A stretch of DNA of 64,000 bases, taken from contig NC_092669.1 of NCBI RefSeq assembly GCF_032118995.1, positions 4,959,501-5,023,500 on the forward strand, written 5' to 3'. Made by a program: the position numbers and the translations under genes. How positions within the stretch are numbered: position 1 is the first letter of the stretch; the number at the start of each line of letters is the position of its first letter. The stretch comes from Asterias amurensis (Eukaryota; Echinodermata; Asteroidea; Forcipulatida; Asteriidae). Under the pieces are notes generated by a model. That model searched no databases. It was given only the letters and a program-made list of their open reading frames with translations, and was not told the DNA's origin. This document shows, piece by piece, positions 95 through 62,650 of the stretch.

Positions 95-3000
95 ATGGAT
101 CTCATGAAGGAAAAACTTCTTGAGTGGAACTTCCCTCAGTTAGTTGAGACGTTTGAAGGTAAGTACTATAAAAGATTTCTGTATTGATGTTATTATCTGT
201 AGTGATAGACTATACACGACTCGTTAGCAGCATAAAGGGACAGTTGAACGTCATGTTTTGATTGACTGACAAAACTTTTGAACAGTGACTTGAATATCAC
301 AAACACGTACATGAACAATCATGAACAATCAATGGTCCCCGTATTGCGCACGCAATACACGTACAACATGCATCGTTGGAGACCATTGTAGACATGTATA
401 TGTGCACTGTATTAAACCACCACCACTTCATACAGCCACGGTGCTGTATCATCGCACCCGTATCATCAGGCCAATGGATGATTGGGCCGATGTAAATTCA
501 TGAAGTGTGTCGGCGATTGTCGCTACACCGCACACTGACACTGATGTATTGTAGTTGTACACCATGATGTGTTTATTAACACACTGTTTTGTTTATTATA
601 GTGTTGCTGTAGTGCTAGTGTTATTATAATTATTCTTTACAGTACTAGTAATAGTATTAGACCCCGTATAACTTTTTCCCCCGAATGTTTTTAGTAAACC
701 ATTGTTGATTTGTAAACAATCAAGCACACCGCCATTTTCTACGATTGTAACCACACCAAGCCACAAAAAAGCCTCAAAATTACAAAAGGCTTGAAGACCC
801 TATACTGGCTTCAGTATACTGAAGATTCAACCTCAGACATGAAATTAAAGTCATTATTATTTTTTTCTGCTGCAAATTGATGATTTTTAAGTCACACTCA
901 GTCGGACCATTCATCACAGTCGGACCATTCATCACGATTGCCTTGAACACTAGATGACTCTCCGAGTCTAATTTGGACAGGTGCCCTGCCTATCTGCATT
1001 GTCGCAGTTCACTGGTGGTACATCATGTACCAGATTTTGTATTTTTATTATTGCTTTTATTATTATATTTTTTAGTATAGCAAAATTAATGTATTGTTAT
1101 GAAATGAAATAAAATAATAAAATAAAAGTACACAGAAAAAATTCATTACCCATGCATCATCTGCAAACCTAGCTGTTACTGTATGTGTAATTTTCCTTTT
1201 TCTATATCACTGTGATTGGGTTTGCGAATCAAGTACTGTGACATGTTTTTATTTTACAGAACAAGGTTTTGATGATGAATCGTTTCCCCTCCTAACAGAA
1301 GATAGTGCCAAGGAAATAATTCCAAAGCTTGGAATTCGACTCAGATTCATGAAGTTTCACCGTGCAGAGGTAAATTAACTCCAGATAAGGTTTCTAAACT
1401 TAAAAACAATTTATATATGACTGATTGACTCACAGCTGACTTCTTGATAAGGATATAGAGACATGAAATCCTTTACGTGTTGCAAATGTCTCACCAAAGT
1501 ACAAGGAGGAATCCGTGGGCTTTTTATGCACATGAAGTTTGTTCATCTAATGACATCTTCAATGTGCACTAAAATTATTTGTGCGGAACGCGACTGCCAC
1601 AGAATATTCTGGCGTGGATCGACTTACAAACGCCATTTGGAACACAGTCACATGCAAGTAAATGATGAAGAACATATTGTACAAAATGTAGATGAAGATG
1701 AAAATACAAGTGATGATGATGATGGGAATGTTATTGAACACGAGGAAGATTATGTTGATGATCAGGAACCTGAAATTGAAAACCAAAATGAAACAGTCGA
1801 CACCAAGGATTCTGTTGCTGTATTCATAGCACGCCTGCGAAACACAGGTATTCCTTCCTCAACTGTGCAGTACATTTTAAATGAGTCAAAGGGGCTTTTG
1901 GATAAAGTTGTTGAAAAAGTAGGCGAAACAATTACTCCATTACTCACAGCTGCAAGGAATGGTGTATGTCCAAATGAAGATGCAGTTAAAGACACTGAAA
2001 ATGCATTGCAGGAAACCAAATGTGTTTTCGATGAGCTTGGAACGGAACATAAACAAAACAAGTATCTAAAAGAAGTTGGTGTTCTTGTTGAACCTATTGC
2101 AAAGGAGCTTGGTAAAGTTTTTAAAGTTAACACTCACAGACACACTGGAAGGAACTATCAACAAGAACAAAGTGAGTCATTTCAAATTGTTCCATTGAAA
2201 GAAGTTATGGGTAGATATCTTGAGCAACCAGGAGTGATGGCCAGCATATCAAAACAAAAAGATTCAGATGAGGGAGGTGTGCTAAAATCATATCGAGATG
2301 GGAGGTACTTCAAAGAGATCTTCAACTTCCGAAAAGATGAAACAGTTTTACCTATTTTGCTCTACTCGGACGACTTTGAGACTGCTAATCCTCTGGGTTC
2401 GCGAAAAGGCATTCATAAGCTTACAGCAGTGTACATTAGTTTTCCATGTATTGAAGTACAATACCAGGCTACTCTTCGCCATATTCTATTAGCTGCTTTA
2501 GCTCCTACAAAATTGGTTTTGAAGTACGGAATGAACAGTATACTATCTCCAATCGTTCAGGAGTTATTGGAACTAGAGAGAACAGGAATACAGATCAACA
2601 GTCCTGACGGCTACATTGGTGTTATCAAACCAAAGCTGTTCCAAGTCACAGGTGACAACTTGGCATTAAATTCAATGCTTGGTTATGTCACAAGCTTTGT
2701 AAGCAACTACTACTGTAGAATATGCAAGATGTATCGAGAAAATGCAAAGACAGAATGTAAAGAAGATGAAGCAAGTCTTAGAACACGTGCAAATTATGAC
2801 ATTGATTTAGAAAGAGATGATTATTCTGCTACAGGCATACGAAGGGAGAGCACATTCAATTCCCTCTCATGTTATCATGTTACACAAAATTTAACCTTAG
2901 ACATAATGCATGATTTTTTGGAAGGAGTCCTACCTTTGGAACTGAAATTGGTTCTTGGGGAAATATTTAGAAGTGGTCAGATTACCCTAGACACCCTCAA

Positions 3001-6000
3001 TAGTAGAATACAGTCTTTCAACTATGGATTTAATGACAAGAAGAATCGACCTAGTCTCATAACAGCACACCAAATTGCTAATCCTGCAGGAGCCAGTGGC
3101 CAGAAGGCAGCACAAATGAAATGCCTTATGTTGTATATCCCCCTTATGATAGGAGACAAAGTAAATGAACGTTCTGAGTACTGGGAATTGTTGACACAGA
3201 TACTGGACATCTTCAAAATAGTAAGTGCTCCAAGAATCAGCATAATGGCAACATATCTCCTAAAAGCAAAGATTGAAGAACACCATCATCTTTTTCTGGA
3301 ACTCTTTCCAGACAGACATCTGACACCCAAACAGCATAATTGTACGCACTACCCTCGAGCCATTAGATTTCTTGGCCCTTTAGGGTTGTACTCGGTGATG
3401 AGAATGGAAGGAAAGCATAAGCAGCTCAAAAAATGGGCTAAGTTGTCAAACAATTACATAAACATTGCAAAGACACTAGCACATAAACACCAACAGGCCC
3501 AGGGCTTTGAATTTCTCATGAAAGAAATCATTGACAGTCACACAAAGGAAATTGGAGCCCAAATGGTAGTAAAGGCCTCATCACTAACCAATGCTGAACA
3601 AGTTTGTACTGCTCTAAACTGTCCCCTGGAACAGGAACTAGTAGTAGTAAACACTCTCAACCTGAGTGGTTACACATACAGAGCAAATGTCATGGTTCTT
3701 CTAAAGTGGGATGATGAGCCAGAATTTGCAAGTATCGAGCATGTTGTAATTAGAGACTGTGCTGTGAAGCTAATCGTAAAGCCATGGACAACTTTACACT
3801 ATGACCAACATTACAGTGCATACGCTATCAAGGAATCTGATCTTCATTTCCAAGTTAGAGCTCCAGAAGATCTTGTTGACCATAAACCGCTCCATGCTGT
3901 AAAGAACTATGACACAAGTAATCTAGTTTGGTACATCATCACACGTTTCAAACTATCCTAACTATCATGATCTGTACTTAGAATTGTAAAGGTAAAGTAA
4001 AACACAGCATTTTTACATCTAATTTATAAAACTGACCTGTATTCTATGCTCTTAAAAAAATTAATGTACCTGTGTATCTACTAATTATTCAGTAGCGGCT
4101 GTGCTAAATGCGCTATATTAAACAATGATACAACATAGTCGTGCATATGCATGTCCATGTACATACAGTTCACATAATGTAGCAGTGAACATAAATTTAC
4201 CCACAAGGTTTAAAGGAACACGTTGCCTTGGATCGGTCGAGTTGGTCTTTGAAAAGCATTTGTAACCGTTTTTTATAAAATGCATATGGGTAGAAAGATG
4301 TTGTAAAATTAGAATACAATGATTCACACAAACATGCATCGAAATTGCGTGATTTTCCTTTTACCTCGTCGACTAACACGTCGGCCATTTATGGGGGTCA
4401 AAATTTTGACTCCCATAAATGGCCAACCATGTTAGTTCGCACAGTAGAAGGAAAACCACGCAATTTTGAGGCAAACTTGTGTGGATCATTGTATTCTACT
4501 TTTGAAACATCTTTCCAACCATATGCATTTTATAAAAAAAACGGTTACAAACGCTTTTGTTTTGACCAACTCGTCCGGTACAAGGCAACGTGTTCCTTTA
4601 AGTTCACTAAAATGCTGCTGAAAAAGCTACCCTTGAATAATTATAGAAAACAAATACAGTATTAAAAAAAGATTAAATAAGTTTGTATTGAATATATAAC
4701 TTAGAACAATTTTGTTTTCACCCATTTGACTAGTATGCAAGTTGTACAACATTTACACAATATTTATTCACAATATGTTTGTTTTAACCATTTATTGTGT
4801 CATTTTCTCAATATATAATATTTGTTTGTTTCTTACTACTACAGTTTGGGATGGCCTCGGCTGTAACTTTTGAGGGTGATATTTTCAATTTATCTGAGTT
4901 TGATAGTGTGTCAACAACATCATCGCGAAGCTTGCTCAGTAATGCAACAGTCACTTGTGTTCCAGAGACTCCAAGCCCCATTGCAGCCAGCCCATCCTCA
5001 TTGAGCCCGCTATCAAGTCAAAGCATCTCTTGTGAAAGTGTATCCTTCACTAATATGAGGAGCCCATCTCAGTCAGCTGACACTGCCTCTACTGGGTCAG
5101 AACATCTTCTAATGTTTGTAAGTTCCAAGGTTTAACTTTTTTTGGGGTTGGTACCCAGATACAAAACAACGACAGGAGCTCATAATACTGCTGCTACTGG
5201 CATATTGTGGACGTTCCTAAAAATGATGTGATGTTATGCATGTGTCATTACCATTTAGTTCTTTAAATCAGTTTGAAAATCACCTGTGAGTGGTATTTTT
5301 TCAAAATAAAGCTTTTGTCACTAATATATGTGTTTTGATGAGTGAATGTGAATAAATAGTTAGTTCTTATGTTATTTACAAATTTAAGAGTAGGCCCCTA
5401 CTCGAGAGGGCGCTGTTCTTGATGTCAATCGAGGCAGACTTTGCCTGCAATGCGTAGAGTAAACACACTTCAAAGTATATGTACGGTCCATGTCGTGAGT
5501 TTGTACGTTTCAAAAAAAGATTTTTTTTTGCATTTTCCGGCAATGCCGACCAGGTGTATTGCTGCTGAATGCAGAAAACACTTTTTTTGAAACGTACAAA
5601 CTCACAAATTGGATGTACATGCACTTTGCACGTGTGTTTACTATACGCATTGCAGGCAAAGTCTGCCTCGATTGACGTCACAAAAGAGGTAGGCGGAGTC
5701 AGCCCCCAAACAACTTTATATATTATTTAAACATATAAATCGTGACAACCAATTACTAAAAAAAATTGTTTTATTGTTCATAAACATATACTCTTGTGTT
5801 TGAAAAAAAAAAAATGTATTTCCAGGTGATTTTAATTAAAATGATAGGGTGTTATGATTAACAGCCATGGTATATTAACCCTTGGTCAAAGGAGCTGCCA
5901 AGCAACCTAAAAACAGCTGGTCATGTAAATTTGTAAAAGTTTCCCTTTCTCCATCTGTCTTTATAGGATGTAAGGCAGATCCTTGATAAGGATCCACATG

Positions 6001-22500: not shown

Positions 22501-25500
22501 TGCACTACAACTTTAACCTAATGCACGAAAGTTTTGAAATTGCGCGAGACAAATAAGCGACATCCATAGAATTTGTTCCTTGAAGTTAGCGCCCCCAAGT
22601 GCATTAATTATTTTAACTCATTTTCATCAGGCCATGTTAACCCCCTGTTTATAGACGAATTTGGCCATTCAATTTCGTTTTGAGTCGAGTCAAATTCCTT
22701 AGCACTCTGTTCAAGTTAGCGTATCGTCATTCTTTTTCGTGACACACACGTCTCAGCAGCGTCTGCGAATTTGAATGCTGCTTTGATGAATTGTGAAATT
22801 GAATGATTATTTTGTGAAACCGAATGACGCAACATTACCTTTGACTAATCATAAAACAAAATCGAATGACCCTTTTCAGTAGCATTCGATTTCGCGCGAA
22901 ATAGAATAGCTTCGTGGTTAAATTGGCTGCTTATTTTCCGAAACTAACCGAGAAAACCTATACTATACATTTATTTATATAAAACATTCCCGGGCCACCA
23001 AGTAAATGCTGAATCATCCACAAAGGGTAAATACTATTCTCGCTTTAAGTTACTTCTTTCTCTTTCACGTCCATTCATATGAAACTAAAAGTAATGCCAC
23101 AAAATTATTAAGTTCACAACTAATTATTAAACATAATACTTATTTTGCTCGCACTTGTGTTTGCGTTGTGTTCGAAAAGACAAGATAGTCAAGGTTGGGC
23201 TTAGATTTCAATGCATGCATCCAAGGGACAAAATCCAAACTATAGTTTTAAAAATGCGCTGTTTTGAAAATGCGCTCCTACGAACTTACCCATCTTCAGC
23301 TGCAGCAGTCCCTTGGTTGTCATTTAAACTAGGTTGCGTTAAACGTAAACGTCTCCTCCGTAAACAGCAACAGACAACCATCGTAACGAACGGTGTAAGA
23401 ACACATACGGCGAAGACCGCCCCAAACGCTCCAACTAAAACAACCTGGTTATCAACTTGGTTGAACAAAACAAACAGAGAATACTATTAAAGGCAGTAGA
23501 CACTATTTGTAATTACTCAAAATAATAATTAGCATAAACCTTATGGTAACAAGCAATGGAGAGCTGTTGATAGTATACATTGTGGGAAACGGCTCCCTCT
23601 GAAGTAACGTAGTAATTTTCCACGAATTTGATTTCAAAACCTCAGAATTAGATAGTTAGCATTCGATATCAAATTGGGGAGGTAGTGCTTTCTGCTCTAC
23701 CGGCCAGGCTTCGAATTGATGATACCCAAGCCTACATCCGTATGGACTGTAAAGGGGTTAACCCTGTTTCAGCCCTAGGAGTAGGTGGCAATGGCCTCTG
23801 GTAAAATTATTGTAGCCCACACCTTGAAGTGGCCTTCAGGCCTTGTGTGTCTGGCAACTTACATAAAAAAAATATATATATAAAAAATCTAAAAGCACAC
23901 AACTTCGTGTGACAAGGTTGTTTTTTCTTTCATTATTATCTCGCAACAATGACGACCAATTGAGCTCAAATTTTCACAGGGTTGTAAAGGATATTTTATG
24001 CATAATTATGTTGAGATACACCAAGTGAGAATACTGGTCTTTTACAGTTACCAATATTGTACAGTGTCGTCAACCCCATTCATGTAGTTTCCACTTCAAT
24101 GCGTATGGTTCACTTAGTTACCTGTTCATGTCTGTTGTGTTGTCATTTTAGCCATCGAGAAAGAATCTGCTGTCGAAGTTTATTATAACTCTATTTTATT
24201 TTTATCTTTTTTCCTTTTGAGATTCAAAAGTCGATGTCTCAACATTCGTATGGTCAATGCATGTTTGTTGTGCGTATTAAAATTACTAGCTAAATTCTTT
24301 GGATACTTTTAAACACAAAACACAATGTCCACATTCAGGTCTACATTAAACTTTCACCGTTTGAAGAAATATTACTTGCTGGGGTGCTGTAGTTTTTGAG
24401 AAATTAGTAAAAAAGGGTCACGAAAATAATTTTCCTTTCACGAGACGAACATTATTTCAGAATGTAAAACGTATTTTCGTAACATAGTTTTACTCATTTC
24501 TCAAAAACTATGTAAGCAGCTCAGCAACTAATATTTTAAGGTAAGCTTTCTACTATCATTATCTTCAAACTGTGTAAGTTTAATGTAAATCTGTGGACAT
24601 TCTTTTTTTTTAGAGCGCCGGCACGTTAAACCGGAGGTCGTTGGTTCAAATCCCGCTCTAGTCAATTTTTCTTTGTTCAATCCTAAGACATTCTATTTTG
24701 TGTAACTAAAAGTACCCAAATCCTTTGAAACGTGGGAATTTCATAAGTTAAGATCTACTCTACTCCCTACCATAATAGAACTTGACTTGAGCGGTGACTT
24801 CAAATGGCTCAATGTTCATATAGCCACTGAAATGACACGTGACGTTAATCACTTCATCTTGATATTCATCCGCCCAGAGAGCTACATACAGGCTACTGCG
24901 CGTGTCACTCAATCCATCTTGACCGTTCCCCGGGGTCACAGCTGACGTCACATAAACCTCGTCCCCAATAACCTCATCCCCATTGATTGTCCATGTGATA
25001 GTTGAGGCACCATCTGTGATGTTGTAAACATTGCAGTTGAATAAGAGGATGCTTCTTGTAATTCGTACGCAGACGTGTCCAGGTTCAATGTTATCAACTT
25101 GGTGCCAGACATTGCATGGGTCTTGCAGCTCAACAGTAGGATATGGGACTGTGAACAAAACAAAATTAACATTATTTAAAGGCAGTGGACACTATTGGTA
25201 ATTACTCAAAATAATTATCAGCATAAAACCTTTTCTTGATTGTGGGGAGAGGTTGATAGTATAAAACATTGTGAGAAACGGCTCCTTGTGAATAAACGAA
25301 GTTTTTTGAGAAAGAAGTAATTTTTCACGAATTTGATTTCGAGACCTCAAGATAGAATTTGAGGTCTCAAAATCAAGCATCTGAAAGCACACAACTTCGT
25401 GTGACAAGGGTGTTTTTTCTTTCATAGTTATCTCGCAACTCCGACGACCAATCGATTAAAAATTCACAGGTTTGTTATTTTATACATTTGTTGAGATACA

Positions 25501-28500
25501 CCAAGTGAGAAGACTGGTCTTTGCCAATGACCAATAGTATCCAGTGTCTTAAAAAAAACTGGTTTTAGTTGATGTATTGATGTTTCTTTTAATTTTCGAA
25601 ACACTTAAAAATCTGTCACGTGCAATTTGGCCCTTGTGCTGCGATTTGTGGTTAAAAAAATAAAAATAAAAATAAAAATACATTTTTTACATTCCGATTC
25701 GATAACAGATACAAAAATAAATCAAAATGGCTTCTCATGCCATCAGCTAAAGTAAACGAAAACTTTACCCGTCATTAATTTATGCATTTAACTTGAAAAT
25801 TTGGAGCGGCTGTGTCCACGCAGGAAGAGGTATCCTTGTAGGAAAGTTCAATTTGCAAAGCATTTACGCTTCTCACATTTAAATTTCCGTGATGGCAAAA
25901 AAACTGGTATACTTTTACACAACCACACTAACTTCGAATTGAAATGTTTCTTCACATGGTTTGAAAGCTGCTGTCTTGACTTCATAACCAAAAGTTTGTA
26001 ATGTCATACATTTAAGAGTGAAAAAGTAATTACAGTCTATCGTGTAAAGAGTGAAAACCACTTGTTTTGTCTGCCATGCCAGTCTTGCAAAGAGCCACAT
26101 AAAGGAAAGGCGGCGAGAACTCTTTCTAGAGTGAAATATGGATTTTTTTTAACTCATTGAGAGTGAAGTTCGTTCCGATTTCACTCAAACAGCGTAAAAC
26201 AGATTGATTTTCATTTTCAAAAGAGTGAAACTGACAACACTCGGACAAAAAAAGTGAATTTGTCACTCTTGTTCCCAAACAAACTTAAAACATACTTATG
26301 AAACATGTATTTACAAAAGCCGGCAGTAATAACTGTTGGATGTCATTGTACGCATAATAACTAGGAACACGTTGCCTTGGATCGGTCGAGTTGGTCTTTG
26401 AAAAGCGTCCTGTAACCGTTTGTTATAACATCGATATGGTTAGAAAGATATTGTAAAAGTAGAATACAATGATCTACAAAAATATGCCTCGAAATTGCGA
26501 GGTTTTCGTTTTACCTCGTCGACAAACACGGTCGGCCATTTATGGTAGTCAAAATTTTGACTCCCATAAATGGCCGACCGTGTTAGTTTGCGATGTAAAG
26601 TGAAAACCGTGCTATTTTGAGTGATACTTGTGTGGATCATTATATTCACCTTTTAAAGCTAAAAAATTCAAAACTAAACTCAAATATTAAAGACACTGGA
26701 CACTATTGGTAAATTGTCAAAGACCAGTCTTCTCACTTGGTGTATCTCAACAAATGCATACAATAATAAGCCTGTAAAATTGTGAGCTCATTGGTCGTCG
26801 AAGTTGCGAGATAATAATGAAAGAAAAAACACCCTTCTCACACGAAGTTGTGTGCATTTAGATGCTTGATTTCGTGACCTCAAATTCTAAATCTGAGGTC
26901 TCGAAATCAAATTCGTGGAAAATGACTTCTTTCTCGTGAACTACATCACTTCAGAGGGAGCTGTTTCTCACAATGTTTTATACTATCAACCCCTCCCCAT
27001 TACTCGTTACGTAGTAAGGTTTATACTAATAATTATTTTGACTACTTACCAATAGTGTCCACTGCCTTTAAAGGCAGTGGACACTTTTTGGTAATTACTC
27101 AAGATAATTATTAGCATAAAACTTTACTTGGTAATGAGTAATAGGGAGAAGTTGATGGTATATATAACTATTGTGAGAAACGGCTCCCTCTGAAGTGACA
27201 TAAGTTTTTGTGAAAGAAGTATTTTTCCACGAATTTGATTGCGAGACCTCAAGTTTAGAATTTGAGGTCATGAAATCAACCAAAAGCACACAACTTCGTG
27301 TGCTAAGGGTGTTTTTTCTTTCAATATTATCTCGCAACTTCGACGACCGATTGAGCTCAAATTTTCACAGGTTTGTTATTTTATGTGTAATGTTGAGATA
27401 CACCAAGTGAGAAGACTGGTCTTTGACAATTATTAATAGTGTCCACTGTCTTTAAGTAGTCATCGTAACGGTGAAAGGGGGGGGGGGGGGGTGTGCTACT
27501 CACCTACATGTAAATCTGTACTGCTTAAAAAAGTGTAGTGACCATTAAAAATAAGTCCATCACAAGTATACTTCCCTGCCGCAGATTCTTTTACTGAGTT
27601 GATAATCAAGTTGCTATTAACTGCAGTTCTATAGGGTGACTCTGTCTTGTTATAGTAAATAATAGTGTCTGCAGGTGTAGTCCATCTCACTGGAATCATG
27701 TTTAAACCCTTCATCACCGTGCAGATCAATGTCACGTTGGAGCCGACCAGCACAGTGATGGAGTTAGCTGACGTCTCGATTGTAGGTTGACCTATTTGAT
27801 TTAAAGACAGTGGACACTATTGGTAATTGTCAAAGACCAGTCTTCTCACTTGGTGTATCTCATCATATCCACAAAATAACAAGCCTGTGAAAATTTGAGC
27901 TCGACTGGTCGTCGGAGTTGGGGGATCCTATGAAAGAACAAAACACCCTAGTCACACGAAGTTGTGTGCTTTTAGATGCTTGATTTCGAGACCTCAAATT
28001 CTAAACTTGAGGTCTCGAAATCAAATTCGTGGAAAATTACTTCTTTCTCAAAAACTATGTCACTTCAGAGAGAGCCGTTTCTCACAATGTTTTATACCAT
28101 ATCCCAATTACTCGTCACCAAGAAAGGTTTTGTGCTGATAATTATTTTGAGTAATTACCAATAGTGTCCACTGCCTTTAACAACAAATTAAAAATCTCTG
28201 GACACTATTTGTAATTACTTAAACATAATTTTGTTTGTAAAAACTTACTTGGTTACGCGCAATGGAGAGCTGTTGTTATTTAAACACAATGTGAGAAACA
28301 ACTCCCTCTGAAGTAACATAGTTTTTGAAAAAGAGATAACTTATCATTGAAATAATTAAAGACTTCCAGCTGAAGCCTTTTAGGCATCTATGAAATTTAC
28401 TCGAAGTAATGCCACAATTGTGTTATGTCTTTCATTATTCTCTTGCAAATTTGATGACCAATATTTATTGAGCCCAAATTTGCACAGGTCTGTTATTGTA

Positions 28501-37134: not shown

Positions 37135-40100
37135 CTAGACTTTACTCTCTAGCTCTTTTGTGCAACCCCCCTCTCCATCTGTTAATGGAGAGGTTTCATC
37201 AACACCGCGTTTTTCGATCTCCATGGCCGGCTCGATACTCCCAGCTTGTTGCTTCTGATCCTTGGAAGCCGGTTTTATTTTAGCCCTCAAACCTTCCATG
37301 TTCTCAATTTCTATGTTTTTCTGTCTGATCTCCATCGACTTGAAGGCACTTTCAAAACTATCAATAGCTCCAGGTGACAACTCCTTAGACGAGTTGAGTG
37401 CTGCGATGTTGAATTCATTGATATTCTTCAGGTACTTCATAACTTCGGATAGAAATACCACGAACCTATCTGTAGGACTACCGTGAAGCAGAAACAGTTT
37501 CTTCAATCTCGTCCAACCATTTTTATCTCTTTCAAGACATTGCGTGACTTTATCGTACCCTTGCAGAGTTACCATGTACAGAGATAGTCTAAGATCAACC
37601 AGGCTTCTGCAAGAAGAGACTGATTGTGTGACCTCACTGAAAGCAGAGTCGTCAATCTTCTTGTTCAGACGAAGATCTAGCATCTTCAACTGCGTGAAAT
37701 TCTTCAGGTTGCTCGCCAACTCGCAGATGGTTTTTGAGCTTAGAATCGACCCAATCAAGACAATCTCCTCCAAATTCGTCAGCTTGAGGAGACACTGGGC
37801 AAAGTCTTTAGCAGGGGTTGACAAGCAACACTCACCGGATTGCGACAGCATGGCGTCTTGTAGAAATGAAGACTGTAGGGCAAGAATGACACTGGTGTCT
37901 AGGTCAAGCTTAGATGAACTCTCATCAACCTCACCCCTTAGGCTAGATTCAACCCTTTCCAACAACAACATCAGCGTTGCATTCACCGAATCTGTCTCCC
38001 CTAGTTTGGACGTTTCTTTATCAGTGTCTTTAAACACGTATGGAAGAAAATCCTCCAGATACTTCCTCAGCTCTTTCGACGGGTGTTTGCCAAATCGAAG
38101 CAACTTGATGGACTTGATCTTCAAGTCGGTCTGCAAGTGTGTGAGAGAGTACGAAAGCAACCGTAACTTATGACTTGAGACCCCAATTAAGCGAATCTTG
38201 CCTTTGCCCTTAGGTGAACTCCCTACTGAAAATAATCTGACCTTCTTGATCGGTAAGCTCACTCCACCTCCTGATTCATGTTGGAGTTGGAGATACATTT
38301 CAATCATCTGCATGTATCTTTGTTTTAGTTTCAAAAACGTATTCTGGTCAATTGGAGCTAAGGACTTTCCAAACATTGGTTTCAGACTTTTCAGTTTGCT
38401 TGTAATATCTACAAGTGTCTTTGCTATTACGCCCTTTATGGAAGGATAAGCATTATGACTTGGCAAACCAGCAAACAGGAACGCTTTGGCAAATGTCGTT
38501 CCAAAACGCACCATTTCTTCCAAATAGGAAGACAGACTTTTATCGGTTTGGGTCAAACTGATGCCGACAGAGAGATCTTGAAAAATCTCTAGGGCAAAGT
38601 AAGCCGTTCGTTCTGTTTGAGATGCAGAACCTCCAACTCGCTCACGGAGAAGCCCAACTCTAACACCCTCGTCAAAGGCACTATTCGTGCTTTCAACAAA
38701 CTGACAAACATCTTTTCGGGACAGCTCACAAAATAGGCCATGATTCTGTAAAACCCTTGGTATTACTATCTTTCCCAAATTAACCAGCATTTTCTGTTGA
38801 TGTTGGCTTAGGTGATGGCCTTCGTTGGTTTGACCACTCACATCGCCCTGTTGATCTTGAGTTGGTTGATTGCCTTCGTTGGTTTGACCACTACCATTGC
38901 CCTGTTGATCTCGAGTTGGTTGATGGCCTGCGTTGGTTTGCCCACTACCATCGCCCTGTTGATCTCGAGTTTGTTGATGGCCTTTCATGGTTTGGCCACT
39001 GCCATCGCCTTGTTGATCTTTAGTAGGTTGATGTCCTTTCATGGTTTGACTACTACCATGGTGCTGTTGATCTTGAGTAGGTTGATGGCCTTTAAAGGTT
39101 TGACTACTACCATGGCCCGGTTGATCTCGAGTTGGTTGATGGCATCCCATGGTTTGACCACTACCATCGCCCTGTTGTTTTGTTCTGTACGCAGCACCAT
39201 CAAACAAACACTTGACCAGTTTACAAAACAACTCGCTTGTTTTAAGGCGACGTCTGAAAACTTCACCGTCTGTCCACAAAGATAGCTGACACAGAGCCGT
39301 AAGGTTCAATGGAAGAGACTCAACATAGGGAGGTAAAATATGATCGTCAAGATACCCGACAAGTTCTTCGCTCCTCTTGCTGTTGTCAAGAACACGTTTG
39401 ATGAACCTTCGAGAACTTGTCGGTGTGAAGCCAGCGACTGTGACATGACGGCAATCAAACTCAGATCTAAAATCTGCATCCCGTATTTGTCTTGTTGCCA
39501 AAACGACGTAAGCACCAAACAGACCTTGCATTCTGATAAACTTCAAGACTTGTCCAACTTCCTCGCAGTCATCAACAAGAATCGCCACATCCAGGGTGTG
39601 GTTCTTGCAAAATGAATTGATAGATCTTGGCGATATCTTTGTGTGTTTTGGTTGACCTAACTGTTGAAAGACTGCGTCACCAAGATTTCTATGTTGAAGG
39701 AGTACCCTAGCTGTTAAGACCAGCACCAACCTAACCTGTCCCTCCAATGCTTCGGCTTTCCCATCGCACATTTCAAACGCAATCTTGTGCAAGAGAGTGG
39801 TTTTCCCGCTACCTGCCCTACCCTCAAGGACAACATGCTTACTTTTTAACTGTGAGATACCATCGTCAAAGAGTTGGTCGTCTGATTCTAACTGATACCG
39901 TATGGTGTGCTCGGCTGATTTGTGTTTGATGAACAATTGGGGTGGTATGTAGACGTCTACCATTGGTTTGTAGCATGCTGGGGTGTCGTCTGTAGCCCAA
40001 GGTGTTATTGGAACTCTTGCAACCCTCACCATTACTTCGTCCTTGACTTCTCTGATCAGCTCTGCGTCAGAATCTGACAACAGTAAAACAAAAATATATA

Positions 40101-43100
40101 TAAAAAAAAATGGTAAAGTAAGCCCCATTCTCAAGATTTGTCACAAGTAGCCCTTTTATGGTAGACAAGGGGCACCATTTAAACTGGGTAAATTTATATG
40201 GGTATACACCCAACCCCAAAATGCGCCGTTGACAAACCTATAATAAAAAGGATAATGACACCTTTAGGTGGTTAACTATCAAAACACATTGTTTGGATAA
40301 CTTATTATGCTTGTCAACCACTGGAGAAGTTGGTCTTAATCGAAGATGGAGAAGCTTGTATTACTTTAAAACGACAGATTTGTTCTACTTTACTAAAAAG
40401 AAGTGGGTTTGATCAATCCACTTTTCCTCTTCCGTGGCAAGGGTCTGTTCTTCATCGCAGCCTCTTGGTGGCGCACTTGTTAATGCTGTCACTCTCAAAT
40501 GTGCACCATAGTAAAGGTTGACTATTTTGACTCGATCCAAGGCTGATCGGCCATTGGTTGATTGATGTGATCGACCATTTGGAACCAGTCTAATAACCAC
40601 ATTTTCTAGCCAGTTCCATACTAACCTCTGCAAAGCGCAGAGTGGAGCCAGTGACACTATAGCAAAAGGCAATGACATGTTGAATACCGCGGTGGTACTC
40701 AATTGAAATCCATCGCTGCTGCATCAATGCTGGTCAGTTATCGACTAAATGTTTGTCATCGAACTTGCTCTAGATTGGCTGAGTTTTTAATATAATCAAT
40801 AGAAAGTTACCGTTCAAGTTGCCTTCGACATCAACCATGACGTAACTGGAGTAACACGGTTTGACTACTCGGTATTTGCAGCAGAGCACAGTCACTAAAC
40901 ACACGATGATGACAATTGCGATAATGGGGATTATTATCCAGAAGGGACCCAAGAAAAACTTCGACGAATCTGCAGAAAACAAACGGTATTTAGAAAATAA
41001 TAGTATAAATTCCTTTACGGTAATTGCAATCTTTACTAAGGCCGAGACAACACACAGTTTTTTCAAAGTAACTCAAAAGAATGTGGAATATTAAAATACA
41101 ACGAGTGAACACAAAAATATGAAGCCTTCTTTAAGTTATATATGTCTTTTTAATTGTGAAACTGCTCGTTATTGGTAACCTTTTTAATTGAAGAGGATGT
41201 CCATTATGTTTTGGCCGGTATAAAACCTCTGTCTGCTAGGCATTACTTTGGTTGTGTTTGGTTGTTTGTATGTTTGTTTGTCTGTTTGTTTGGATGTTCT
41301 TCCCGTCAAGGGAACTCGGCAAACTCCCACAATGGGATTTAATTAAACACCAAGCTGGCAACGGCAAATCTCTCTCATATACCATGGTTTAACGTTGATT
41401 ATGAAATACACAAATTAAGAAATTGTGATTCAGTAACTGGACGACAAAATTTTATTCTAGTCATTGTGAAATCAGAAGTTAGCACAGGTATGATTCAAAC
41501 CCACAACCCAATTGTGATATTGCAATCGAGCAGTCTAACCCTTGACCAGGCAACTTCACACGCCTCTCTCAATACTTATACATGACGTCTCAATTCTTAC
41601 CCAAAATGAGGCTATGGGCGAAAGTCCCCCATCACTTGCAGTGGCTGCGCCCATTGCCTCGATTTGGGTTAGCATTGTGACGTACCTCATGCATAAATAT
41701 TAAGAAAGGCGTATTGTCATTGACTCATTGCGCTCAAAACTGCAGCTCTTTAAAATCGGGGCAATGTTTACCGTTTCGTCATTCTAACACAACGTGACAA
41801 TCCTAAGCGGTGATCAACCCCACCTTTCCCCAACCTTCAACAAATAAACACACTACCTTGTACGACGACCAAATCCACATAGTATCGGTACAGTACACCG
41901 TCTACGAACACGTGACACCAGTATCTGACGTCACTATCAATCGGGCAGCCGGTCAGCAGTAGAGCGCCATCAACGGTGATTCTATAACAGCTGTTCCTTC
42001 CAATGCTCTCTGCGTTCACCAAACTGTCCGGGGATTTGAATGTTCCGATAACGGTGGTGTTTATTGCATCTTTTTGGCCGAATGACCAAAATGCTGTTCT
42101 GCTTTTTGTGGTGTTCAAACCAACCGTACATTCTAGCGTGTAATTCTGCCCAGGCTCAAAAGTTATTTCTTCAACTCTTGAAATGTTGCCCTTGTCAAGT
42201 GGAAATGTATCACCTGCATTGAAGGATTGGAGAAGTACATAGAGTCAATTTTGTAAATGTAAAAAAGATATATTCTCCTTAAAAGAGTTATAAAGCTATG
42301 CCGTACTGAAAATTATGGGATTAGGCCGAGTAAAAAAAAGAACATGTTTAGCGTCCGGGTTTCTCAAAAAAAGGAAGGAGGAAGGGCTTTTTATTTTTTA
42401 TTTTTTATTTCAAGACGGCCGCCATTCTTTTTAAAATGTCAAAAATATCCGTGTTTTTTTCTACTGCTCAAATACACAACACATAAATGAAACATTCTGG
42501 ACGAGAAATTTAGACAAGACATTCAGATTGTTTTAGCTGAGATCGTTTAAAATAACCCGTTTGTCAATAATAAAAAAAGACAACAAAAATAATTTAAAAA
42601 AAGACAAAAGGAAACGGCCTCTTAAAAGGAAGCGGGCGGGAACGCTAAATAAGTTTTTTTTACTCGGTTATTACAAGCTTATAGAGTGCAGTAGATTCTA
42701 TGAACCAGTCTATTCATTCCTTACCAATAACTCGGACCTCCATACGATGGGATCCAGACTTCATCTTGCAGATGTATATCCCGTCATTTTCTTCATCTGC
42801 AGATTTTATTACAAGAGCAAAATCACTACCGAGACCAAAACCCGCATCGTCATACGTGACGTCATTCAAGGCGGTATAGTTCACAAGAAGTTCTATGGCT
42901 GATGAGGCATCTTTAAACCATTGTACCTCGCATGTCTGCTCGCTAATTGGTCCATCGGTACACGGCAGTGTTTGATCTTCACCTTTAAGAACATAGAAGG
43001 AATCTGTTGAAGCTTGAAGGGCATTGTTTGACGGTCTTTCATCATCTACATTGAGAAAGAAACACAACGTGTTAAAGACACTGGACACGATTGGTTATTA

Positions 43101-46100
43101 CTCAAAATAAATGTTAGCAAAAAACGTACTTGTTTTAGTAGCGAGCAATGTAGACCCGTTGATAAACTAAGACTTTGTGAGAAACGGCTCCCTATAAAAT
43201 AGTTTTTTTGAGAAAGAGGTAATTTCTCACTCAAAATACTAAAAGACTTCAGGCCTGAAACCTTTTATTATGCGTCGAAAGCACACAATAATTGTTGGTT
43301 TTCTTTGATCTTGCTTTTTTCTATACGTTTTTCATTGTTCTTTTCCCTATAGATAACAATAATTTTTGTTGTCATAAGTTTAAGATGTACACTCTTAGTA
43401 CTCTCATTATCTTTCTAAAACATGTGATGTTGCTTGTCATACCATCTGGAATGTTTTCATTTTTTCATTTTCTTTTCTTCTTCATTTTTTTTTTTTTTTT
43501 TTTTCATTATTAACTGATGTTATCAACCTTTCACTATCTTTGCGTCGACGTAACAATTCATCAAAGACCCGTCCAGCTCGAAAACGTGACACCAAAACCT
43601 CACAGTTTCTCGGGTGTTTTGAAGAGAGTTGAGTATTAGCGAACCGGTCGAAGCTACACCGATACCAACTCGACCTTGGAACTGAAGTACAGTTCCACCG
43701 GGGAACCTGGCACAGAGAATATCAGTTCCACTCGTAACACCGGTTCCCTGTGACCAGTACACCGTTGAAGATGACGTCACATCACACGGGCATGGTATCA
43801 CGTGTCGTAAAGGTTGAGCCAAACTAGACGTAGTTATGAGGTCAGCTTCTACGGCTTGAAACACGCCTTCTGTATTGACAAGGATTAACAATGTGTTTAG
43901 TTTTATGATGGCAATACTCGATGAAAATTTGCCTGAGGGTAAAGAATACATATTTTGGTTTCACCCACATACACCGATGTGTGTGAGCTGTACATGCCCC
44001 TAGTCACTACTTTCCCGAGCTCTGTGAACAACATCACAGACAGTCATAATATCTTGGGTGTGATTCGAACCCATGACCCTTGCATTAAGAGCGGTGTCAT
44101 ACCAACTAACCCACCGAGATTTACCGGTGGGTAGAGGCAGTTCGACTCCTGTTATTATTGGCAGCGGTGCCCTAACGTATTAAAAGATGGTCACACTTTA
44201 CCCAAAATGAAGAGTGATAAAATAATAATATGATGATTCACAATAAAACTAAAATGTTGTGCGTTTACCTGTTGGAATGTTAAAACTGTTTATGGTTACG
44301 GTTTTGCAGGAGATTCTATCCCTCAGAAACGCTGCCCCCCACGCCCCCCCCCCCCAATCCCTAAGAAGCGAACTGTATCATCTGATAGCGCCCTCTTTTG
44401 AACACTTGACACAATATGATGTTCCTGAACAGCAAAGTGTTGGTTCGAGTCTCGGTCGCGACACCCGTGTCCTTAAAACAAGACACCTAACTATGATGCT
44501 TGGCCCTTAGGATGGGACGTGAAGCCGTTGGTCCCGTGTGTGTTGTGCAAGTCCCTTAAAGATAACCCATTGCACTTGTCGAAAAGAGAAGGGGTTCACC
44601 CCGGTTGTAAAAGGATGGTTCTTGCCGGAAAACACTGGTCGGTAAAGCGCCTTACGCGCGTCGCATAATAAATCGATCCGGCCTGTCAATCAAACTGTGC
44701 GCGTTCACCCATTTGACCAATCGCAGCAACAACTGTGGTCAGACAAACTCGGTCATGCGTGCGCGTATATTTGGCACGCGCGGCAGAATTATGCAGAATA
44801 TCATTGGGAGTGCTTGTACACGTGTCTTGTTCACGTGCGCGGTGGGCGGAGCTTAGTGGAAAGCCGGAACGGTCCATAGGATTGTCACATTAGCGAGGTT
44901 TAGCTGAACGTTACGCAAGCAAATACGTGAACGTGAGCGTCAAAATATGGTGTTGTTTTTGTGTGCGTGAAGCCGCCACTTTGGGCTTATTGCTTGCTCA
45001 AGTGTGACGTCTGCGCGCACGTTTGAAACGTGCCTTATGGAAACTTCACGTATGCTAATGGTAACTTCACGTATGCTTTAAAAAAAAACGTAACTTTATT
45101 TAACGTGATGATTTTTTGATATTCATGTTCACGTTCACGCGGAATGTGCAACTGAACCTCCCTAATTACTTCCCTAGAACAACGTCTCACCTATAACAAG
45201 TACTTCAACCACGCTATATCTGTTGATCGTTTCGTGAGGAACAATAATGCAGACATAATTCCCCTCGTCCTGTTTGGTGACATCTTTAATGATCAGTCCG
45301 TTGTGTGACGTCAGAGCATAGTTCTGGTTTGCCCTATTGTCGTTCTGCCCGATCAGTCTTTTTCTTCGAGGGTCGATGTCACTGTTGCCACGGTACCAAA
45401 AAACGCCGGCTACACTCTCGCCCGGTCGAAAAGTAGTGCACGGAATTTGCTGGAGAATACCTTGCTGGATTGTGACCTGGCCGTTGGTGTCGCTGGTTAC
45501 ATCATGGATTGCAAGAGCTGCACATTGTGGAAAATAACATTATTTTGGTACGATTGGATGAACGGAGGGTGCACCCCAGTAACTAAGGAGAAAACAAGTA
45601 ATAGTTGGTTTAAATGCACTTCAAAATAGTATGTAAAATAAACAGATAAGAGGGTCCCAGGCGGGGTCATGGGTACAAATTCTGCCCACTGTGACATGGG
45701 AGTTTGTGACATCCAATTTGATAAAGTTTGGATAATAGCTTTTTGCTGAGAGGGACATTTTGTACGATTGTTGCTCGGATGTTTGGAGAGTTACAGCGGA
45801 TTTGTTTTATTTTGATTGTGAAATCACTCGACGGGCACAAAGACTCTCCAGGCATGTTAACAAGGGGCACAAAAGTAAATGGAATAATGCCTCGTTACAG
45901 AAGTTGCGGAACTTTCTGTGTGTATCTTCTTTTTTTTTTCGTTGGATTTATTTGTGTAGCATTTTCACTGTTTGCCATGAAACTTTTCCCAACAACACAT
46001 TTCGCCAGCACTAACTGTTGAATGAGGTGCATTCTGGTCTAATCGCTAGCTAGACCAGCATGCATCTCATTCCACGCCGAAGGCGCGCGTGCCGAGTATT

Positions 46101-46798
46101 TATACGCATGTCTAATGGGAAATGATTTTGGGTGCGTTCGATTAGCTTAAGTGCTCATTCGCGTGAGCCCCTGACAAGAGCTAATCGAACGATGACTCAC
46201 CCTCTCGTGGTGAGGTCATGCACCTCTGCCCAGCCCCGAGTGACCCGTTCCACTCAGGGCACTTGGGGCTGACCCGGGTGAGCCCCTGGAATGACGTCAA
46301 AGCTATTCGAACGTAACGGGGCAGACCGGGGTCGACCGGGGGAAGCTATAAATCGAACGCACCCTTAGTAGTAAAGGGTTCGCACTCGAACAACCTGGAC
46401 ACGAGAGGGTGCACTTCATATACACTGTTAGTTATAAAGGGGCGGTGCGGACTCTAAAATCAAGGTTACAATCGATTGTCAATCTTTTTGGGGGAATTTA
46501 TTTGTAAGTTTGAATTAAAACCAGACAAAGCTTTTAGAATAACGTTTCTCTTCGAGATTAATGTTTCTATTATAAAGGTTGCAAGTAAAATGTGGTTCAA
46601 AAAAGGGACGAACAGAAGTGCCACGCAAGAACTTCTATTGCATACACACTAAAGATAAGCGAAACTATTTGAAATGCTTAACCTAAGTATTTCATTTTTT
46701 TTGTCTTCACCTCTATCAGCCGGACAAATGCTGCTCATTGCAAGCCCAATCACGAAGTAGACAAAAGCCACTCGCAGGCCTATAGACGATCTTGGCAT
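37135..46798 (-). CDS. Type I membrane receptor: four Ig-like domains, TM, cytoplasmic NACHT and LRR-like region
   Basis: Exons in coding order: 46711-46798, 45191-45517, 43528-43869, 42725-43045, 41857-42213, 40811-40969, 37135-40073. Every intron is phase 1 and the joins give 1,510 aa. Residues 1-29 are a signal peptide (start at 46798; an upstream in-frame Met at 46852 is possible). Ig-like domains end near 138, 252, 359 and 478. The membrane helix is about 485-508 (PFWIIIPIIAIVIIVCLVTV), then CCKYR. The single last exon encodes a NACHT ATPase: Walker A EGRAGSGKTT (615-624), Walker B VAILVDDC (694-701), sensor VVLATR, and VAGFTPTSSRRFIKRVL. A repeat stretch (831-952) precedes a helical region and LRR-like repeats near the C terminus (LTNLEEIVLIGS, FTQLKMLDLRLN). 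NACHT-LRR proteins are NTP-driven assembly sensors, usually cytosolic; here the module is tied to an extracellular Ig stalk. No Death, CARD or TIR domain is seen. The donor at 43527 (GTTGAT) is weak. Confidence 0.82.
38812..39177 (-). repeat. 54-bp coding minisatellite in the NACHT exon
   Basis: About seven units of 18 aa of the type HQPTRDQQGDGSGQTMKG lie between the NACHT core and the following helical region. Units differ by a few residues. The length keeps the frame, so copy number could vary between alleles. A long frame on the opposite strand (38812-39285) is a shadow of it. Confidence 0.92.
41100..41856. other. Intron between the fourth Ig exon and the TM exon
   Basis: Holds a (GTTT)-rich run at 41250-41290 and a decayed tRNA-SINE on the minus strand (about 41470-41560, TGATTCAAACCCACAACCC). 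No further exon recognised. Confidence 0.5.
43070..43275 (+). mobile_element. Truncated family A MITE in the Ig-NACHT gene
   Basis: GTTAAAGACACTGGACACGATTGG then GAGAAACGGCTCCCT; the right half is lost. It begins about 25 bases upstream, in transcript sense, of the third Ig exon. Confidence 0.7.
43950..44165 (-). mobile_element. tRNA-derived SINE
   Basis: CACCGATGTGTGTGAGCTGT, then a minus-strand T arm GTGATTCGAACCCATGACCC and an anticodon-arm region, as in 31538-31857. Confidence 0.65.
44430..44695 (+). mobile_element. tRNA-Leu/Ser-type SINE
   Basis: GTTGGTTCGAGTCTCGGTCG serves as a B box, followed by ACACCCGTGTCCTTAAAACA and GGGACGTGAAGCCGTTGGTC. The same body occurs in reverse at 58790-59065. 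Confidence 0.65.
44700..45190. other. Intron segment, no gene
   Basis: Contains many GTGCGCG/CGTGAACGTGA-like words but no element or exon I can name. Confidence 0.35.
45990..46125. mobile_element. Foldback element family H, short copy
   Basis: CACTAACTGTTGAATGAGGTGC and the GGTCTAATCGCTAGCTAGACC palindrome match the inner part of 15664-15960 and 19208-19470. Confidence 0.6.
46130..46374. mobile_element. Short TIR element, family G, copy 2
   Basis: GGGTGCGTTCGATTAGCTTA at the left, AAATCGAACGCACCCT at the right, with a GGGGTCGACC body. In the first intron of the Ig-NACHT gene. Confidence 0.7.
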
Positions 46799-54300: not shown

Positions 54301-56270
54301 ACGTGTTCCTTTAACAACATATATTTTATTAAATTTGGTTTTACCCATATGTATGTTAGCATACTCAGGTGGGATTTGGTTGGATTCGAACCACGACCCT
54401 TGCACTTCTAGAGCAATGTCATTATACCAACTAGCTATAGGCAGTTCGGATCCTATGTTTTAGCATCCATTCAAGTATGTTTTGTTTTCTTGTCATTTTT
54501 TTTTGTTATGGTAACAATTCAGGTCAACAGTCAGTTGAGCTTTTACCTCACTACACTGTACTTGCTGGTTCCACTGTGACTCTTGTCTGCACGGTGCAAA
54601 ATGTCAATCCCAACACAACTGTAAAATGGAGTAGGCCTAACTACCCTGTAAACATTGTTAGCTGTACTAATGAGACACAAGAGATAGCAGGTCCAATAGT
54701 CTGCAACTTGACTCTAGAGTCAGTTGAAGAGTCTTCGGGCGGAAAGTATACTTGTAATGGACTTGTTGGTGGCGTCGATTTCAAAAACAGTACAGAGTTG
54801 CATGTAGGTAAGTAGCCCCCCCCATCCCCGCCCCCAGCTTTTGATGACTTTGTTAATTAAAACACGGATTTGTTTTTAAATTATCTCGGTATTGCTAGAA
54901 TTGCTATTGCTGGAATTGCTGCAGCTGCACTTGCATATGCATTGCTATTCATTTTTATTCGTTACTGCACAATGCTGTGTTTTTATAAGGGCCTTCTTAA
55001 GAAATAAATAAAACAAATAAACGAAGTTCACAAACAAACAAGAAAAGACAAAAAAATTTAAATAATAAGGAATTAGAGTTGCAACCCACTTTCCACAACT
55101 GACCTGTTTTAATGAAAGAAAGAAGAAAAATTGTCATAACCCCTTTGCTAGATGCTATACGTCGATACAAGAGACCATGATGAGACCTCATTGTTATTGA
55201 GTCAACTGTTTTGTTTTGTTGTGTCGACAGTCCCATATCCTACTATTGAACTGCAAGGCACTGGGCTCCAGGTTGGTACCATTGAAACTGGACCCTTTTG
55301 CGTACCAACTACCAGACGCAACTTCTTCTTCAACTGCACTGTTTACAACATCACAGATGATGCCTCGACCATCACATGGGCAATCAATGGGGATGAGGAT
55401 GTTGGGGACGAGGTTAATGTGACGTCGGATGTGATCCCGGCGAACGGTCAATATGGATTGAGGGACATGCGAAGTTCCTTGAATGTAGCTCTCTGGGCGG
55501 ATGAATATCAAGATGAAGTGATTAACGTCACGTGTCATTTCAGTGGTTATATGAACATTGAGCCATTTGAAGTCACCGCTCAAGTCAAGTTCTATTACGG
55601 TATGGAGCAGATTTTATCCAATGAAATTCTCAATTTCAAAAGTAAAAACAGTAATAATATTTCTATAAAAAATCATGATAAAATAAAAGAAGTCTAACAA
55701 GACCGACCATAACACTGTCCCACTATGAGACAACAGGGGTGGATTTCACAAAGAGTTCAGACCAGTGTTATCTCGAGTTAGGACGAGTTACTCGTCCTAA
55801 CTCTTTGTGAATTCGACCCCTGGCCTTAGATCGTCTTCTTCAACACACATACTCATCACCGTTCCCCCAAACTCGTCTGGCAAGTTACGAACACCTTGCC
55901 TTTTTCCAGCTGCGCACCGCGGCGTCTCTGGAATTTCTTGCCAGACGAGCTGAGGGGTAGGGTCACCGTCTACATTTAACCTCAAGACTCATCTGTTCAT
56001 TTTTTTCCCAGCTCGCTAGCATCCGGTACCTTTGATTAATGGTTCTATTCCAGATACTGTGCGCCGTACAAATTGTTTGTTATTATTTTTATGTTGTACT
56101 GCTAAAACTATTCAGTAATTTTTCGACACATATTGCTCTTCATTTCAGATATTCCCATGAGTGTGTTGATTGGACTTGCCTCATGTCACGTGGCGTTTGC
56201 AATTCTGGCTGTCATTGTTGTCATTGTCATCGTTAGGTTTGGCGACCAAACCCCCTTAAAATTGGCGTGA
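51367..56270 (+). CDS. Kinase-less two-Ig membrane protein, paralogue of the receptor kinase
   Basis: Exons 51367-51424, 54523-54807, 55231-55599 and 56149-56270, all phase 1, give 277 aa. Residues 1-20 form a signal peptide of the same 19-codon-plus-one length as in the kinase gene. Ig-like domain 1 (about 20-114, Cys pair LVC and YTC) and domain 2 (about 115-237) match the kinase ectodomain in order. The last exon gives a membrane helix (about 241-265) and the tail RFGDQTPLKLA with a TGA stop, so no kinase domain is encoded. Domain 2 is almost identical to its counterpart from [20 protein letters not shown] to its end. Leader sequences are also alike. It could be a decoy, a co-receptor or a dimer partner; these roles are inference. 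Whether the last exon is an alternative to a more distant kinase part cannot be excluded, but none is in the window. Confidence 0.82.
51945..53088. mobile_element. Large family J-like foldback element with ATTCAATTTC arrays
   Basis: The left end has TTTCCCGGTCAATTTCAACA and the right end the matching inverse (GAAATTGGCCGGGAAAAC). Between about 51970 and 52215 the word CATTCAATTTC recurs roughly every 15-40 bases. Between about 52730 and 53060 the complement GAAATTGAATG, with variants, recurs. It fills much of the first intron of the kinase-less gene. Confidence 0.65.
53368..53445 (+). repeat. TTTACG hexamer microsatellite
   Basis: Repeated CGTTTACGTTTACATTTAC with few substitutions. Intronic. 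Confidence 0.85.
53913..54314 (+). mobile_element. MITE family B copy
   Basis: TTAAATGAACACTTTGCC to GGCAACGTGTTCCTTTAA, with the ATTTTATGGGAGTC central pair. In the first intron of the kinase-less gene. Confidence 0.85.
54335..54460 (-). mobile_element. tRNA-derived SINE fragment
   Basis: GTTTTACCCATATGTATGTT and a minus-strand T arm GGATTCGAACCACGACCC; ends before the first Ig exon. Confidence 0.6.
55738..56030 (+). mobile_element. Family K MITE remnant and LINE 3'-end fragment
   Basis: 55738-55832 has GGATTTCACAAAGAGTT and the inverse with CTCGAGTTAGGACGAG. Next, frames around 55905-55990 read CAPRRLWNFLPDELRG and FNLKTHLF, the usual end of a LINE reverse-transcriptase ORF, shifted between frames. 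It lies in the last intron of the kinase-less gene. Confidence 0.65.
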
Positions 56271-61239: not shown

Positions 61240-62650
61240 ACTTGAACTTACTTGATTGAATCCACCGACGCCATCACACAACTGCGGAGGAGGCGGTGGT
61301 TCTGGTTACTGGGGCAGACAGCTTAGATAAGCTTATGTAGAGCCTCCCGACGTTCTTTAGGAATTTATCCACATGTCCCTTGAAAATGTTCACACTTGAA
61401 GCTTCAATTGCCTTTCGAGGGAGAATGTTCCAGTAGTTGACCACTCTCTGGCTAAACCAGAACTTCCTGAGGTTAAGGTTGGATCTTGATTTGTACAGTT
61501 TAAGTTGGTGACCCCTGTGCTGCACGGTTGACAAATCAAAGAAGGGTTCAGGGTTCAAGCCCTCAAGGCCCAAGAGTATCTTAAAGGTCTCGATAAGATC
61601 TCCTCGCAGCCTCCTGCACTCCAGGGTGGTCAATTTCATTTCCCCGAGTCTGTCAACGTAGTCTAGGTGAGATAGACCTCCAATCATTCGCAATGCTCTC
61701 TTTTGAACTCTTTCTATTAGGTCAATGTCCCTTTGAAGATGAGGCCTCCACGCCTGTACACAGTAATCTATGTGGTCTAACCAGTTCTTTGTATAGTCTG
61801 ATGATTGTTGTTTTGTCTTTGTTCGTAATGGTTCTGTTGATTACGCTTTTGACTGCCTTCGCACAGTGGGTACTTGCATTTAGTGACTGGTGGATGATTA
61901 CCCCAAGATCTCTTTCTTCACTTACTGTCTGAATTATACTGTCACCAATGGAGTAGTTGTGCTTGATGTTTCTATGCCCGAAGTGGAGGCACTTGCATTT
62001 GTCAATATTAAATAACATCTGCCAGTCATCAGACCACCGGTAAAGGCGATCGAGGTCGTCCTGAAGAGAACGAGCATCTGCTGGGGTTTTCACTTTCTGA
62101 AGACCTTGGTGTCGTCAGCAAACTTCAGGACCGAACTCAAGATATCCTCGTCAATGTCGTTGATGTAGATGATGAACAACAACGGGCCAAGAACAGAACC
62201 TTGGGGGACACCGCTTTTAACTCCTGACCACTCCGATTGGGCCCCGTTCACCACCACCCTCTGTTGTCTGTCAGACAGACATGCCTCAATCCAAGCAGCA
62301 GTTGAATCACCTATCCCATGTGATCTAAGTTTCGTCAGTAACCTCTGGTGTGGAACTCGATCGAAGGCTTTACTGAAATTGAGGTACACTGCATCAACAG
62401 GGTTGCCATCATCAACGGTCTTTGTTACAAGCTCCAGAAAAGTTAGTAAATTGGTCAGGCAGGAACGACCTCTTAAAAACCCGTGCTGTGAATCACTGAT
62501 CTATCTGTGTGCTGTCAGGTGTTCCATGATGGCATCTCGGAGGATGGTTTCAAACACCTTACTGACCTGTGAGGTTAGGCTGATCGGCCTGTACTGTAGT
62601 TTGCTGTTACACTACGTTTGCCCTTCTTGAAGATGGGGGTGACGAATTGA
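61240..62650 (-). mobile_element. 5'-truncated LINE (CR1/L2-like reverse transcriptase)
   Basis: The reverse transcriptase runs on the minus strand from about 62645 (VTPIFKKGKRSVTANYRPIS), through AVYLNFSKAFDRVPHQ, SGVPQGSVLGPLLFIIYIND and LKFADDTKVF (catalytic FADD), to the thumb and C-terminal part WFSQRVVNYWNILP ending near 61274. A stop codon (near 62502) and frame changes near 62090 and 61700 break it. The 3' tail has AAGTAAGTTC twice, then A-rich sequence. No endonuclease remains. The clade is a guess from RT motifs and the short-repeat tail. Confidence 0.85.

Follow-up and report, generated by a model that had tools for sequence, protein, structure and literature searches.

The kind of receptor that unites immunoglobulin (Ig) domains, a transmembrane (TM) segment and a NACHT domain is known from sea cucumbers. 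AjNLRC4 of Apostichopus japonicus is described as having an extracellular region of residues 1-482 with an Ig-like domain at 31-132 and an Ig domain at 251-353, a TM segment at 483-503, a NACHT domain at 600-757 and a second TM segment at 776-795, and its authors locate it on the coelomocyte membrane (PMC8699970). It binds microbes through Ig, dimerises, a step that its authors credit to the Ig domains, and is internalised upon infection, while a NACHT fragment binds beta-actin (PMC8699970); its Ig part forms a complex with caspase-1 (PMC11932488). AjNLR-new, from the same species, likewise combines Ig, TM and NACHT, with the Ig region reported as intracellular and the NACHT domain as extracellular, an inverted topology for which its authors present binding and localisation experiments (PMC13133943). 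Both proteins act in bacterial uptake (PMC8699970, PMC13133943). Among proteins with NACHT and leucine-rich repeats (LRR), or NLRs, a genome survey of Chiridota heheva records members with an Ig V-set domain (PMC8913654), and putative membrane-bound NLRs with TM segments are reported from the sponges Dysidea avara and Amphimedon queenslandica (PMC12909245). Here we describe a gene of the sea star Asterias amurensis, found in a 64,000-nucleotide stretch of contig NC_092669.1 (positions 4,959,501 to 5,023,500, hereafter the window), whose predicted product has this kind of architecture.

We regard it as rather likely that the gene encodes a type I membrane pattern-recognition receptor, in which an outer part of four Ig domains is linked by a single TM helix to a cytoplasmic NACHT module that ends in an LRR-like region, and, by analogy, that it works as AjNLRC4 does. 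The original prediction, made from the letters of the window, knew of no well-described receptor with this order. The architecture is not unique, AjNLRC4 having already been described and its function studied (PMC8699970, PMC11932488), and AjNLR-new and the C. heheva NLRs with an Ig V-set domain being known as well (PMC13133943, PMC8913654). What is new is the distribution in sea stars, the four-Ig head as a duplicated pair, the probable LRR and the presence of several copies in Asterias; among the literature judged by title or abstract opening, we recognised no publication that deals with such proteins in sea stars.

Gene structure and domain order

Seven exons, joined at GT-AG sites by script, run along the minus strand from 46798 to 37135 and give a product of 1,510 residues. 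All six introns are in phase 1 and the NACHT and C-terminal region is encoded on a single open exon, as originally predicted. The lengths of the five internal exons are divisible by three; the symmetrical phase-1 Ig exons would fit an origin by exon shuffling. Exon 1 (46711..46798) holds the start codon and a putative signal peptide (residues 1-29), for which hydropathy, peaking at 1.93 from residue 6, is the sole basis. Exon 6 (40811..40969) encodes the TM helix (about residues 490-508) and a juxtamembrane tail. With a mean hydropathy of 3.42 it is the one very strong hydrophobic helix in the product, and it lies between the Ig and NACHT regions. The remainder, residues 532-1510, is encoded by exon 7 (37135..40073), which carries the NACHT domain, a tandem-repeat linker, a helical region, the LRR-like C-terminus and the stop codon.

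Each of the four intervening exons encodes one Ig domain: exon 2 (45191..45517) Ig1, residues 30-138; exon 3 (43528..43869) Ig2, residues 139-252; exon 4 (42725..43045) the V-set-like Ig3, residues 253-359; and exon 5 (41857..42213) Ig4, residues 360-478. The families above Pfam cut-offs in the product are V-set, ig, Ig_3, I-set, Ig_2 and NACHT. The Pfam report locates the best stretch for each family and counts second stretches without positions, and among the Ig families these best stretches all lie in two exons. Those of ig, Ig_3 and I-set are within residues 43-121, in exon 2, which shows C, W and DEGNYVC hallmarks; that of V-set is at 271-351, in exon 4, the whole protein scoring E 3.6e-13. 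Exons 3 and 5 show the same Cys-Trp-Cys pattern, and Ig2 and Ig4 are assigned from these hallmarks and from their mutual similarity. Ig1 pairs best with Ig3 (25% identity, E 2e-6) and Ig2 with Ig4 (30%, E 6e-7), the remaining reported pairs having E 0.05 or worse. The head is most simply explained as a duplicated two-Ig unit.

Sea star relatives and the membrane-NACHT junction

Three protein searches, with residues 480-980 (5 of 5,708 candidates passing E 0.001), with residues 560-830 (5 of 1,194 passing E 10) and with a six-sequence profile (7 passing E 10 among the 8,000 candidates scored), returned seven relatives. These are four Asterias rubens RefSeq proteins (LOC117305123, LOC117305409, LOC117305410 and LOC117305414), two ENA fragments and LOC119732020 of Patiria miniata. 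No sea cucumber protein was among the matches, which is no negative test, as candidates needed shared exact words. The A. rubens loci and the Patiria locus belong to the same family with the same domain order, as database models, and differ in repeat number. All four RefSeq proteins of A. rubens keep the order of the window protein, and, each coming from a 10,582,139-base record, their genes appear to lie on one chromosome. Outside the tandem repeat the window protein is 90.0-91.3% identical to P0001-P0005 (the A. rubens models P0001-P0004 and the ENA fragment P0005), which are 93.4-95.6% identical among themselves. Such a distance would fit a different asteriid species or a divergent paralog.

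The alignment with the Patiria protein begins at the end of Ig1 and runs in one piece across Ig2, Ig3, Ig4 and TM to NACHT (35% identity over 669 residues, E 2e-122). The two proteins align again over the helical region, at 26% identity, and over 231 residues of the C-terminus, at 40%. The Patiria protein has one strong hydrophobic helix (residues 458-476) and long linkers without the 18-residue repeat, and the first part of its model looks mis-modelled. We consider colinearity across two sea star genera the best evidence that Ig, TM and NACHT form one protein; together with the signal-like start and the single TM helix, it argues for the type I membrane receptor that was predicted. A chance join of an Ig-TM unit with a NACHT module was also considered, and was rejected as very unlikely in the light of the colinear Patiria homologue.

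The exon junctions were compared with the A. rubens models at the level of protein, not DNA. In P0001 and P0003, the two that reach the start codon, 28 of the 29 residues of exon 1 are identical in each case, and five of the six window junctions are identical. The sixth is the join between the TM and NACHT exons, where four residues of the window protein, GNLN, are absent from all four models that cover it (P0001-P0004). Exon 6 of A. rubens ends 12 nucleotides earlier, at the equivalent of 40823, where the window reads GC and not GT, leaving 40811-40822 as the extra bases. The window donor may therefore be either a GC-AG site at 40823 or the downstream GT at 40811 that the original prediction named; both choices give one and the same reading frame. 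We take the agreement of junctions as support and not as proof, because the A. rubens models are database predictions.

The predicted cytoplasmic region and neighbouring frames

The NACHT domain (residues 612-761; 39385..39834) matches Pfam PF05729 above cut-off (E 1.9e-10), C-terminal of the TM helix and about 80 residues beyond the TM exon. It contains GRAGSGKTT at 616-624 and VAILVDDCEE at 694-703, which we take to be Walker A and Walker B. Against PDB, the NACHT exon alone matches NAIP at E 4e-5, with weaker matches to NLRC4 and NLRP14. Up to E 1, Pfam finds no death-fold or similar effector domain (CARD, PYD, BIR or death), and classical inflammasome recruitment is for this reason not evident. 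After the NACHT domain comes an in-frame tandem repeat of 54 bp, or 18 residues, in 7.1 copies (38794..39177). By pattern count there are 7 units in the window and 12, 9, 5, 4 and 5 in P0001-P0005, and P0006 begins within the repeat; because the number varies from 4 to 12 among Asterias copies, we regard this part as a fast-changing linker. The helical region that follows includes a hydrophobic stretch at residues 785-798. A motif in the tail, SSYVMV, which resembles an immunoreceptor tyrosine-based inhibitory motif, was given no weight: it is not constant from one A. rubens copy to another, and Patiria lacks it.

The original prediction also gave the protein an LRR end. Pfam supports its Ig and NACHT parts, but finds no LRR in the C-terminal 554 residues of the window protein, even at E 10, and in Patiria only LRR_4 at E 0.13. 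Nor does the count of LxxLxL-like motifs exceed that in shuffled sequences, either in the window protein (10 against a mean of 8.5, with 662 of 2000 shuffles reaching the observed count) or in Patiria (6 against 5.6; 993 of 2000). A profile search against PDB nonetheless lends the assignment support. The profile, built from residues 1243-1445 (37333..37941) of the window protein, two A. rubens proteins and the Patiria protein, found 26 different PDB sequences at E 10 or better, every one of them an LRR protein. Four have E below 0.01, namely a designed LRR (2e-6), two NOD2 entries (3e-6 and 1e-5) and a second designed LRR (0.002), and the 22 weaker matches include NAIP, NLRC4, NLRP14, NLRP1 and FBXL17. 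For some entries (5irl and 5irm as NOD2, NAIP, CD180 and dynein light chain 1) LRR status is general background and not part of the listed name. A column-shuffled control of the profile (one shuffle) gave no PDB match. The C-terminus is thus probably a short, divergent LRR that Pfam does not recognise, and both it and the helical region are conserved, as judged by the Patiria alignment and the profile. The cytosolic proteins NAIP, NLRC4, NLRP14 and NOD2 resemble the window protein in NACHT and LRR, and are without an Ig head or TM segment.

No second copy of the gene was found inside the window, the only extra tblastn matches being between Ig2 and the Ig4 exon of this same gene. On both sides of the gene lie related exon-like frames in opposite orientation: 24763-25191 (minus) and 55152-55694 (plus), 74% identical and without a convincing Pfam match, and 27499-27816 (minus) and 54441-54812 (plus), 40% identical and recognised by Pfam as Ig domains. 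A minus-strand frame at 19947-20396 matches the beginning of a tyrosine kinase domain (PF07714, E 3e-5), and may form one Ig receptor tyrosine kinase gene with the same-strand Ig exon at 27.5 kb. Elsewhere, retroelement reverse transcriptase frames lie in pieces at 61277-62500 on the minus strand (PF00078 at 62093-62500, E 9.5e-20), and an 836-residue open frame at 1451-3961 on the plus strand, with no Pfam match at E 0.01, looks by eye like a mobile-element protein.

Proposed mode of action and possible origin of the family

The window protein resembles AjNLRC4 in having an extracellular Ig head of about 480 residues, a TM segment near residue 490, a NACHT domain near 600-760 and no CARD. Its Ig1 exon (30-138), Ig3 exon (253-359), TM helix (about 490-508) and NACHT domain (612-761) fall close to the published AjNLRC4 domains. 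The published description of AjNLRC4 differs from the sea star protein in its two Ig domains, its second TM segment and its lack of an LRR. From the near coincidence of the coordinates we suspect that AjNLRC4 has two further Ig domains that were overlooked, making four in all, and that its second predicted TM segment (776-795), which lies near the sea star hydrophobic stretch at 785-798, may not be a true one. AjNLR-new shares Ig, TM and NACHT with the sea star protein, but in the inverted topology reported; if its first TM segment were in fact a signal peptide, the order would be that of the sea star protein, against the experiments that its authors report for their topology. The C. heheva NLRs share NACHT and Ig V-set within the echinoderms, a likeness of domain content taken from a genome survey only, and the sponge NLRs share TM segments, with no Ig head mentioned in the passage cited (PMC12909245).

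Genome sequence and database models show the gene's structure, its domain order and the conservation of that order between Asterias and Patiria; that the gene is expressed, how the protein sits in the membrane, what it binds, whether its NACHT domain is active and all later steps are inferred. If the protein works like AjNLRC4, the Ig head would bind microbial surface molecules and self-associate, and clustering of the receptor would gather the cytoplasmic NACHT modules at the membrane. These modules would then couple the complex to actin-dependent uptake and, perhaps, to the activation of caspase. To read the protein as an NLR-type module used from the outside in, as originally proposed, is reasonable. 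NACHT oligomerisation at the plasma membrane, which that proposal placed under the control of the Ig head, is conceivable; the dimerisation reported for AjNLRC4 is credited by its authors to the Ig domains.

The model could in principle join two adjacent genes wrongly, one for an Ig-TM receptor and another, starting within the last intron, for a NACHT protein. The NACHT frame is indeed open upstream to 40140, a short hydrophobic stretch that begins at an in-frame ATG (40128) runs into the NACHT exon, and P0005, on a 4,833-base ENA contig, starts just before that exon with MSDSDAEL. The hydrophobic stretch, however, is the T-rich tract before the splice acceptor and does not occur in P0005; Ig-TM is joined to NACHT in four A. 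rubens models and in the Patiria model at 35% identity; and the TM exon, whose donor matches in phase, would otherwise have no continuation, all of which makes a false join very improbable. It is also improbable, if less so, that the gene encodes a non-immune adhesion or recognition receptor, for instance in allorecognition, with a borrowed NACHT module. Ig heads are common in adhesion, and several similar copies exist in A. rubens, but both studied receptors with Ig, TM and NACHT serve bacterial uptake (PMC8699970, PMC13133943).

A less remote alternative, which we still think unlikely, accepts a membrane receptor and makes its NACHT-LRR part only a scaffold, for example for actin anchoring, and not an ATP-driven switch. 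It would accord with the binding of beta-actin by the AjNLRC4 NACHT fragment (PMC8699970), with the absence of any death-fold signalling domain by Pfam, and with Patiria, where the Walker B and sensor positions are changed (LVDGC, MTTMN). Walker A, on the other hand, is retained in the Asterias proteins and in Patiria, Walker B is intact in the window, and the helical and LRR-like parts are conserved. The changes in Patiria also weigh against a pattern-recognition receptor working as AjNLRC4 does, as do several further points: the sea star receptor is known here from genome sequence and database models alone; P0002 and P0004, both marked partial, diverge from the window at the Ig2-Ig3 junction, where P0004 continues into sequence that is intron in the window; the link to AjNLRC4 consists of domain order and coordinates only; the second TM segment and missing LRR reported for AjNLRC4 disagree with the sea star protein; and the contact of AjNLRC4 with caspase through its Ig part fits poorly with a simple outside-in model.

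A wider proposal, which we put forward tentatively as possible, is that single-pass receptors with four Ig domains, TM, NACHT and LRR form an ancient family, common to sea stars and sea cucumbers and older than the split of the two classes, in which the two-TM, LRR-less and inverted sea cucumber proteins would be mis-described members and the NACHT-LRR part a membrane-tethered switch fired by an extracellular ligand. Colinearity between two sea star genera and the several copies in Asterias rubens, together with a likely LRR, indicate that the Ig-TM-NACHT plan is no oddity of sea cucumbers. Sea stars, including the laboratory species Patiria miniata, offer a second group in which to study the control of an NLR module from outside the cell, and their proteins give a standard against which the unusual topologies in the literature on sea cucumber proteins can be judged.

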